Source: a virus
IMG/VR virus record: IMGVR_UViG_3300031758_000215
Span: 1 to 38,217 of that record
DNA length: 38,217 bases
Strand: one strand, 5' to 3'
The translations under genes and the position numbers were made by a program. Position 1 is the stretch's first letter. Each line of letters begins with the position of its first letter. Below the pieces are notes generated by a model. That model was given only the letters and a program-made list of their open reading frames with translations. It made no database searches and was not told the DNA's origin. This document shows positions 1 through 38,217 of this stretch, piece by piece.

Positions 1-136
1 CGTTGAGGCACGCGACGAGGACGACGCTGCCGAGATCGCGCTTCAAATCGTAAAGGCGGGCTATACCGTCCACAGCGAATTGGATTGGGACGTTGAGGAA
101 GTCAACATTGGAGACCCTGCCGATGTCGCAGAATGA
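1..136 (+). CDS. 3' part of small early protein (full copy at 37901-38086)
   Basis: This is the truncated left-end copy of the 61-residue gene that is complete at 37901-38086. The reading frame is open from base 2 and stops with TGA at 134-136. It lacks its start because the contig begins inside it. It ends in Val-Ala-Glu here and Val-Thr-Glu in the right copy. The stop overlaps the start region of the HTH gene. On the circle the two copies are one gene. Confidence 0.75.
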   Translation, partial: VEARDEDDAAEIALQIVKAGYTVHSELDWDVEEVNIGDPADVAE

Positions 137-267
137 CCAGATTAGAGCCGCCCTGATTCTAGGGCGGTCGCTCACCCCGCTTGATGCTCTGCAAGACTAT
201 GGATGCTTCAGGCTTGCCGCTCGGATCGCCGAATTAAGGCGAGAGGGGCTAGACATTGAGTGCAAGA
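1..267. repeat. Terminal direct repeat, left copy (circular closure)
   Basis: These bases recur at 37951-38217 with two substitutions: g128 versus a38078 and g202 versus t38152. The overlap indicates a circular or circularly permuted genome, or a true terminal redundancy. The sequence alone cannot separate these. The genes of the early operon read continuously across the join. The first difference is silent in the HTH gene but changes Ala to Thr in the gene that overlaps its start. The second changes Gly to Val in the HTH gene. Confidence 0.93.
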
Positions 268-36928: not shown

Positions 36929-36950
36929 TAACTACTCGGAGAACCTAGCA

Positions 36951-37142: not shown

Positions 37143-37170
37143 CCAACAACTAAACACGGAGAACTTAGCA

Positions 37171-37332
37171 ATGCAAACTTTTTACATTAGTTTCCGCCAT
37201 ATTGTGAGCGGTGCTATTTACGTTTTGCCGATTTGTGCGTCCTCAATTCAAGAAGCATATAGAAAGGCACTTGACTACCCCTATGAGAATAATTGGTACG
37301 AACTCATCCGCGAGGACGTTTGTAAGAACTAA
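37171..37332 (+). CDS. Early protein 5, 53 aa
   Basis: The ATG at 37171 follows CACGGAG-N9. The product begins MQTFYISFRHIVSGAIYVLP and continues CASSIQEAYRKALDYPYENN to EDVCKN. A beta strand, then helices, similar in form to early protein 2 and the protein at 37901 (small beta-alpha folds with an AAEIA/QEAYRKAL-like helix). The stop at 37330-37332 is two bases before the ribozyme. Function unknown. Confidence 0.7.
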   Translation: MQTFYISFRHIVSGAIYVLPICASSIQEAYRKALDYPYENNWYELIREDVCKN

Positions 37333-37334
37333 CA

Positions 37335-37384
37335 GGTCGAAACGCCGTGAGGCGTCAGGCGGTAGTGCCGCCTCTGATGAGACC
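37335..37384 (+). ncRNA. Type II hammerhead ribozyme
   Basis: The 50-base segment has all conserved hammerhead parts in the type II order (stem II open). GGTC (37335-37338) pairs with GACC (37381-37384) as stem II. GAA (37339-37341) is the core. A37342 with CGCC pairs with GGCG and T37355 as stem III, closed by a GTGA (GNRA) loop. C37356 is the residue at the cleavage site (GTC). AGGCGG (37357-37362) pairs with CCGCCT (37368-37373) as stem I with loop TAGTG. CTGATGA (37374-37380) is the other core strand. Cleavage is expected between 37356 and 37357, leaving the downstream gene with a 54-base leader and a 5'-OH end. It fills the 78-base gap between two early genes. Confidence 0.92.
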
Positions 37385-37410
37385 AAACTACAAACACGGA
37401 GAAATCAATC

Positions 37411-37713
37411 ATGGGTTACACAATCAACGACACTGATAGCCGTTACAACGGTTGGACAAACTACGCCACTTGGCGCGTCAATCTGGAGATATTCGACGGG
37501 TTCGACCCGCGCGACTATTTTTCAGGCTTTTTTGACGCTGACGATATCGACGCATTGGCTGATGGCTTGTCTGACTACGCTGACCAAGTGCTATTTGAGT
37601 GCGCTACCGTCGAGGGGTTAGCCGCTGACTACGCTCGCGCTTTCCTGTCGGACGTTAACTGGCGAGAGATTGCCGAACATATGGTTGACGCTATCAAGTC
37701 GGAGGCCGCATGA
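37411..37713 (+). CDS. Early protein with NGWxNYxTW motif, 100 aa
   Basis: The protein MGYTINDTDSRYNGWTNYAT continues WRVNLEIFDGFDPRDYFSGF. The N-terminal NGWTNYATWRVNLEIFD motif matches a widespread family of small phage and plasmid proteins. The C-terminal part (LAADYARAFLSDVNWREIAE) is helical and acidic. The ATG follows CACGGAG-N9 and lies 26 bases after the hammerhead ribozyme, so its message is likely to be released by cleavage. The family resembles anti-restriction or DNA-mimic proteins in acidity (many Asp/Glu); that is inference. It ends SEAA with an ATGA overlap. Confidence 0.8.
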   Translation: MGYTINDTDSRYNGWTNYATWRVNLEIFDGFDPRDYFSGFFDADDIDALADGLSDYADQVLFECATVEGLAADYARAFLSDVNWREIAEHMVDAIKSEAA

Positions 37714-37904: not shown

Positions 37905-38086
37905 AAACCTTCGACGTGGTGCTCTTTACCTGCATCCAAGAGGTCGTAACCGTTGAGGCACGCGACGAGGACGACGCTGCCGAGATCGCGCTTCAAATCG
38001 TAAAGGCGGGCTATACCGTCCACAGCGAATTGGATTGGGACGTTGAGGAAGTCAACATTGGAGACCCTGCCGATGTCACAGAATGA
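37901..38086 (+). CDS. Early protein, 61 aa, small alpha/beta
   Basis: The ATG at 37901 sits in a second GGAGGCCGCATGA junction. The product MKTFDVVLFTCIQEVVTVEA has a beta hairpin, then DEDDAAEIALQIVKAGYTVH and ELDWDVEEVNIGDPADVTE. The beta-beta-alpha order with an AAEIAL helix and a terminal acidic strand is common in small phage early proteins. Its 3' part (135 bases) is the left end of the contig. The stop overlaps the start of the HTH gene. Confidence 0.78.
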   Translation: MKTFDVVLFTCIQEVVTVEARDEDDAAEIALQIVKAGYTVHSELDWDVEEVNIGDPADVTE

Positions 38087-38217
38087 CCAGATTAGAGCCG
38101 CCCTGATTCTAGGGCGGTCGCTCACCCCGCTTGATGCTCTGCAAGACTATGTATGCTTCAGGCTTGCCGCTCGGATCGCCGAATTAAGGCGAGAGGGGCT
38201 AGACATTGAGTGCAAGA
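37951..38217. repeat. Terminal direct repeat, right copy
   Basis: Right copy of the 267-base end repeat, with a38078 and t38152 against g128 and g202 of the left copy. See the left copy for meaning. Confidence 0.93.
38073..38217 (+). CDS. HTH protein, right-end truncated copy
   Basis: This is the first 48 codons of the gene at 123-332, cut by the contig end. The sequence reads Asp-Tyr-Val-Cys-Phe where the left copy has Asp-Tyr-Gly-Cys-Phe (t38152 for g202). On the circle there is one gene; the difference is strain variation or a sequence error at the low-coverage end. Confidence 0.7.
   Translation, partial: MSQNDQIRAALILGRSLTPLDALQDYVCFRLAARIAELRREGLDIECK

Follow-up and report, generated by a model that had tools for sequence, protein, structure and literature searches.

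A compact type II hammerhead ribozyme between two small phage genes: a candidate maker of mRNA ends

The stretch of viral DNA analysed here, called the window (38,217 nucleotides, positions 1 to 38,217 of IMG/VR record IMGVR_UViG_3300031758_000215), carries between two small genes a 50-nt element with the look of a self-cleaving RNA, which raises the question of what kind of ribozyme this is and what it could do for a phage at the boundary of two cistrons. We suggest, with a probability of about 0.72, that a compact type II hammerhead acts here as an mRNA end-maker between the two cistrons. In this proposal the structure, the conserved core, the covariation and the placement are read from sequence and comparison, and from them we infer cleavage, the resulting ends, their stability and their benefit to the phage.

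The element and the genome that carries it

We find that positions 37335-37384 (+), read directly from the letters, make up a complete type II hammerhead with a full core and three stems. The parts of the junction are the following.

37171-37332, +, upstream small gene, 53 aa, TAA stop at 37330-37332, no match in family searches
37334, +, A directly 5′ of stem II, proposed to dock with U37363 of loop I, from co-change in relatives
37335-37338, +, stem II 5′ strand GGUC, C11.1 being 37338 (sequence, fold, covariation alignment)
37339-37341, +, core G12 A13 A14, invariant in alignment A1
37342-37355, +, stem-loop III, ACGCC-GUGA-GGCGU, with the A15.1-U16.1 pair and a GNRA loop (sequence, fold, covariation alignment)
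37356-37357, +, C17 and the predicted cleavage site C37356/A37357, by homology to the hammerhead core
37357-37373, +, stem-loop I, AGGCGG-UAGUG-CCGCCU, 17 nt, six of six stem I pairs covarying in relatives
37374-37380, +, core C3 U4 G5 A6 U7 G8 A9 (CUGAUGA), invariant in alignment A1 save N7
37381-37384, +, stem II 3′ strand GACC, G10.1 being 37381 (sequence, fold, covariation alignment)
37398-37403, +, Shine-Dalgarno-like GGAGAA of the downstream gene, from the sequence
37411-37713, +, downstream gene, 100 aa, DUF7249 (PF23907) / phrog_871, from family searches

From 37330 onward the strand thus runs TAA CA GGUC GAA ACGCC GUGA GGCGU C^ AGGCGG UAGUG CCGCCU CUGAUGA GACC, the caret standing at the predicted cut. 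The ribozyme starts 2 nt past the upstream stop, and its end lies 14 nt from the downstream ribosome-binding site and 26 nt from the ATG at 37411. All hammerhead core elements are present (CUGANGA, GAA, A15.1-U16.1, H17 and the C/G pair closing stem II), the permutation is that of type II, with loops capping stems I and III and stem II open, and the three helices, which compensatory changes support, join at the core. The unconstrained minimum-energy RNA fold has exactly the hammerhead shape (-23.6 kcal/mol, z -2.8).

A preliminary description of this DNA had called the element a type II hammerhead that starts 2 nt past one stop codon and ends 26 nt short of the next gene, with a predicted cut between C37356 and A37357 that lies 54 nt before the ATG. 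Its coordinates, base assignments and distances are all right, and the identity is strongly supported by the fold, covariation, core conservation and an assayed relative, Bcep176. It also spoke of a P22-like phage, with which the virion genes agree, as those for portal, coat and head closure are of families found in P22-like podoviruses; its "early operon" is a putative label, taken from gene order alone.

A direct terminal repeat of 267 bp (window 1-267 and 37951-38217, 99.25% identical) lies at both ends of the contig, which therefore probably represents a whole phage genome of some 37.95 kb, either circularly closed or permuted. The nearest named phages are about 70% identical in the large terminase, and BLAST of the 620-bp junction and of the downstream protein against named phages gave no match. 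When contigs were scanned with one genome per species, matches fell in two MAGs only, and we therefore assign no host. The 53-aa upstream gene has no counterpart in any relative fetched. Similar leaders (around AAACACGGAGAA) precede successive small genes in the window, at 36929-36950, 37143-37170 and 37385-37410; they are found also in relatives that have no ribozyme, and may be an aid to gene shuffling.

Chance, covariation and the compact class

Rfam at its gathering thresholds gave no match in the window. The preliminary description had proposed a search with the type II family, and at relaxed thresholds this family, RF02276 Hammerhead_II, is indeed the sole family match in 301 nt and is matched at full length, but at 22.2 bits (E 0.024) it stays below the cut-off of 37. 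Scanning 206 real loci for the core and three stems gave 96 copies, and the control, 1.8 Mb (both strands) of sequence shuffled by a first-order Markov model from half of the scanned loci, gave 0. An independent, looser scan gave 111 real matches against 1 in the control; as many of the loci were fetched by a hammerhead pattern, the real counts are enriched, and it is the shuffled counts that give the rarity by chance. The hammerhead of the window is beyond chance. The counts given below from two further pattern scans are samples, to be read as holding among the matches listed.

Covariation supports the fold. In an alignment of 46 distinct relatives (A1), 99.6% of the 690 stem cells pair, compensatory changes occur at 10 of the 15 pairs with 132 double-changed cells, and none of 500 shuffles comes near the observed covariation score; three stem II pairs and two stem III pairs are invariant and so uninformative. 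Across 143 distinct compact cores among the matches listed, the nine strongest couplings are exactly the stem I and stem II pairs. Of 30 copies lying outside the search patterns, 27 retain the whole core though their stems differ (the model that found them favours the core, yet a single core change would not conceal a copy), which points to catalysis, beyond mere hairpins, as what selection appears to maintain.

A scan in which only stem III and the core were fixed yielded 116 distinct ribozymes among the matches listed, and these fall sharply into two classes. Where stem-loop I has 17 or 18 nt (43 among the matches listed), stem II has at least 4 pairs in every one; where it is longer (72 among the matches listed), stem II has fewer than 4 pairs in 63 (Fisher p 5e-23). 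The long class has a detectable Watson-Crick pseudoknot between loop I and the tail (mean 4.3 pairs vs 3.1 in shuffles, p below 0.001), whereas in the compact class loop I pairs with the tail no more than with shuffled tails (p 0.48; second test p 0.07 to 0.86). A pseudoknot for the compact class is thus rejected by the same kind of shuffled-tail test that detects it in the long class. The window element lacks the loop I-tail pairing of the pseudoknotted type II consensus of Perreault et al.; its copy taken alone could pair UAGU with ACUA, a pairing that is not conserved among relatives. Its loop I is of the compact type, for which the consensus is G-UNANG-C, and is enclosed by G37362 and C37368, with G at the third position where A is usual (112 of the 143 compact cores among the matches listed). 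By its sequence, then, the window element is a member of a compact subclass with a 6-bp stem I, a UNANG-type loop, a 4-bp stem II and no pseudoknot.

How such a ribozyme could be held together is suggested by two bases outside the helices. In 242 of 247 compact cores among the matches listed, A stands just 5′ of stem II and U is the seventh base of stem-loop I, a position that opens the loop in the common form; the window has these two bases as well (A37334 and U37363). In the other 5 of the 247 both bases differ, and cores with a single change number 0 of 247 among the matches listed; the five exceptions span at least three loop types, and since some of them may share ancestry the independent events are possibly fewer than five. 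This co-change in 247 of 247 cores points to a docking contact between loop I and the base 5′ of stem II. In hammerheads of types I and III, loops I and II are joined by a conserved reverse-Hoogsteen pair (PMC6155905), which the putative contact resembles, and by analogy its geometry might be the same. The co-changing pair predicts how compact ribozymes attain their active fold.

The compact form also bears on detection. Rfam recovers 3 of the 60 matches of our search model in 18 loci, and none in nine further loci bearing such copies; because this model was trained on the compact class and is not a neutral benchmark, the comparison tells of a gap in Rfam coverage only. The compact-trained model in turn does not recover the PaP3 hammerhead, which was assayed by others and is therefore of another form. 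As the compact class shows, a search model based on the pseudoknotted form overlooks many copies.

Type II hammerheads, including clusters in prophages, were reported by Perreault et al. in 2011 (PMC3088659), and the type II of that work and of RF02276 has, as far as the accessible text describes it, the same permutation, core and phage setting as the window element, often with several copies per gene block. In the RF02276 form, though, a long loop I pairs with the 3′ tail and stem II usually has 2-3 bp, against a 17-nt stem-loop I and a 4-bp stem II in the window. According to the same accessible text, the phage clusters cleave in vitro, and one set of them also in E. coli, and the hammerhead of Burkholderia phage Bcep176, which carries an A6C core change, cleaved slowly when assayed, with a kobs below 0.1 per min (PMC3088659). 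Like the window element, Bcep176 has a 17-nt stem-loop I (loop G-UUAUG-C), a 4-bp stem II (one G-U) and an A before stem II, and it lies 2 nt past a stop codon; it differs in the A6C change, in a longer stem III and in lacking an annotated gene that starts right behind it in the same direction. Bcep176 is of the compact form, which means that activity has been shown by experiment for a member of the compact class and that the class is not entirely unknown. The preliminary description had thought the element worth describing as one of a known class in a defined phage neighbourhood; it is so for its compact form, but not for rarity, as phage type II hammerheads, also clustered, are found in the accessible part of the 2011 report. 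The compact pseudoknot-free form with its putative docking pair and strict stop placement appears to be a variant undescribed in the accessible literature, a comparison that takes in the main text of the 2011 paper.

Placement at gene junctions

At 241 distinct junctions among the matches listed, the ribozyme starts -1 to +5 nt from a stop codon in 77% (compact) and 73% (long), compared with 3% for places picked at random. In 82%, compared with 21% at random, it is followed within at most 50 nt by a start codon that has a Shine-Dalgarno sequence. On the opposite strand the combined placement, stop and start, falls to the background rate, and in loci with several copies all copies are on a single strand (20 of 20). 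In these sequences, phage type II hammerheads lie immediately between a stop codon and the ribosome-binding site that follows. The genes behind them are varied, most of them with no known function, so that no gene-specific role is apparent.

Arrays are also found. Locus L261 has a hammerhead array between successive small genes, with 11 model matches in 8.5 kb, and array copies number 7 in 5.4 kb in L094 and 7 in about 4.3 kb in L100. Three array copies carry one core change (CUGA to UUGA or CCGA; L252 8894-8948, L261 409-473 and 172-236), and these are possibly decaying or slow ribozymes. The cultured Streptomyces phages R4, Spernnie and phiRKBJ001 have 7, 10 and 6 copies, those of R4 and Spernnie being mostly of the long form and recognised by Rfam. 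In R4 (NC_019414, locus L245), type II matches lie on the same strand inside the tiny ORFs gp60.1, gp67.1 and gp75.1 (record positions 41762-41845, 44125-44217 and 47073-47174), which are likely ribozymes misannotated as genes. Within a single intergenic gap, Spernnie (MT701594) has two hammerheads head to tail (45577-45633 and 45639-45701), separated by about 5 nt, and the annotated start of its CDS 075 falls within this double-hammerhead stretch.

At the junction of the window itself, the 15 genes closest to the downstream gene (identity above 90%) have the ribozyme directly before them in 8 cases and a short leader instead in 7, and the upstream gene varies among relatives, whether the ribozyme is present or not. 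Since 7 of the 15 closest relatives do without it, the ribozyme is dispensable there, and so optional at any one junction. The preliminary description took loss of the core in relatives that keep the neighbouring genes as a sign against the ribozyme; what is seen among these 15 relatives is clean presence or absence of the whole element, absent in about half, with no decayed copies at this junction. In loci L162 (around 1326-1395) and L166, a different hairpin pair stands after 'TGACAGGTC', upstream of the same DUF7249 gene; considered as a hammerhead, this pair was rejected, having no core and no credible Rfam match.

Readings of the function

As the polycistronic RNA emerges, the 50-nt element would fold, hairpins III and I forming and the flanks closing stem II; U37363 in loop I would dock on A37334, just 5′ of stem II, and the RNA would cut itself after C37356. 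The upstream message would then end about 24 nt past its stop codon, in a GNRA hairpin with a 2′,3′-cyclic phosphate, and the downstream message would begin 54 nt ahead of its start codon, with a 5′-OH on a blunt hairpin, and would have its own ribosome-binding site. RNA ends of this kind withstand exonucleases and 5′-end-dependent RNases. Both new ends should thus resist end-dependent RNases, and the two halves could therefore have separate lifetimes and translation. A similar arrangement is known from RiboJ-type insulators, engineered self-cutting hammerhead leaders that give an mRNA headed by a hairpin before the ribosome-binding site. These resemble the downstream half of our model, but they are unrelated to the window element, being derived from a type III ribozyme of a plant-virus satellite and placed after a promoter, not between cistrons. 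In the accessible text on phage hammerhead clusters it is proposed that these divide long transcripts into mRNAs the length of an operon or a gene (PMC3088659), and the placement between stop codon and ribosome-binding site fits this idea, because both halves would gain hairpin ends. A halovirus variant (HHphage of HF1/HF2), by its description there, can be likened to the window element in lying 13 nt ahead of the start codon of a helicase gene in the early region, but is a different structural variant, discussed as possibly salt-tuned (PMC3088659).

The same tight placement could also mean that the ribozyme senses translation. A ribosome's footprint is large enough to cover the start of the ribozyme while it stands at the stop codon, and with the stop codon so close (-1 to +5 nt in about three quarters of the 241 junctions among the matches listed) a ribosome terminating 2 nt upstream would cover the stem II 5′ strand and GAA, so that cleavage would occur only when the upstream gene is not translated; compaction of phage genomes predicts tight spacing equally well, however, and we regard this account as unlikely. 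Quite improbable, in our view, is that the ribozyme is a selfish or hitch-hiking element, spread by recombination at gene junctions and of little use to the phage. The clean presence or absence at one junction among close relatives, the identical ribozymes that adjoin different genes and the shuffled neighbour genes would all suit such an element, but the core and the stem pairing are under strong constraint across very different phages, the orientation follows the genes, and neither a mobility gene nor a target duplication was seen.

That cleavage works as a switch, exposing the downstream ribosome-binding site 14 nt past stem II, we hold to be very improbable: the predicted accessibility of the Shine-Dalgarno sequence and the AUG differs little between the uncut and the cut RNA, with no consistent rise on cleavage, and relatives without the ribozyme retain the same kind of Shine-Dalgarno leader. 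Scarcely credible is a relic, or a plain double hairpin serving as terminator or processing site with no catalysis. The Rfam score under the curated cut-off would agree with it, but all core bases are present and the core is retained while stems vary, the compact relative Bcep176 cleaves, and the terminator scan was empty at the site, with no T-run downstream and neither promoter nor terminator there.

We therefore favor the end-maker reading. It is possible, though the odds are against it, that one could go further and see here a separate type II architecture, frequent in phages and mostly missed by Rfam, with loop I docked 5′ of a 4-bp stem II in place of a pseudoknot, much as proposed for types I and III, as a dedicated end-maker between stop codon and ribosome-binding site that is perhaps gated by the ribosome. 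The role of hammerheads in phages and bacteria has been stated to be open (PMC6155905), and the positional rule of stop codon, ribozyme, ~23 nt and start codon, together with the named cultured phages, makes this function testable.
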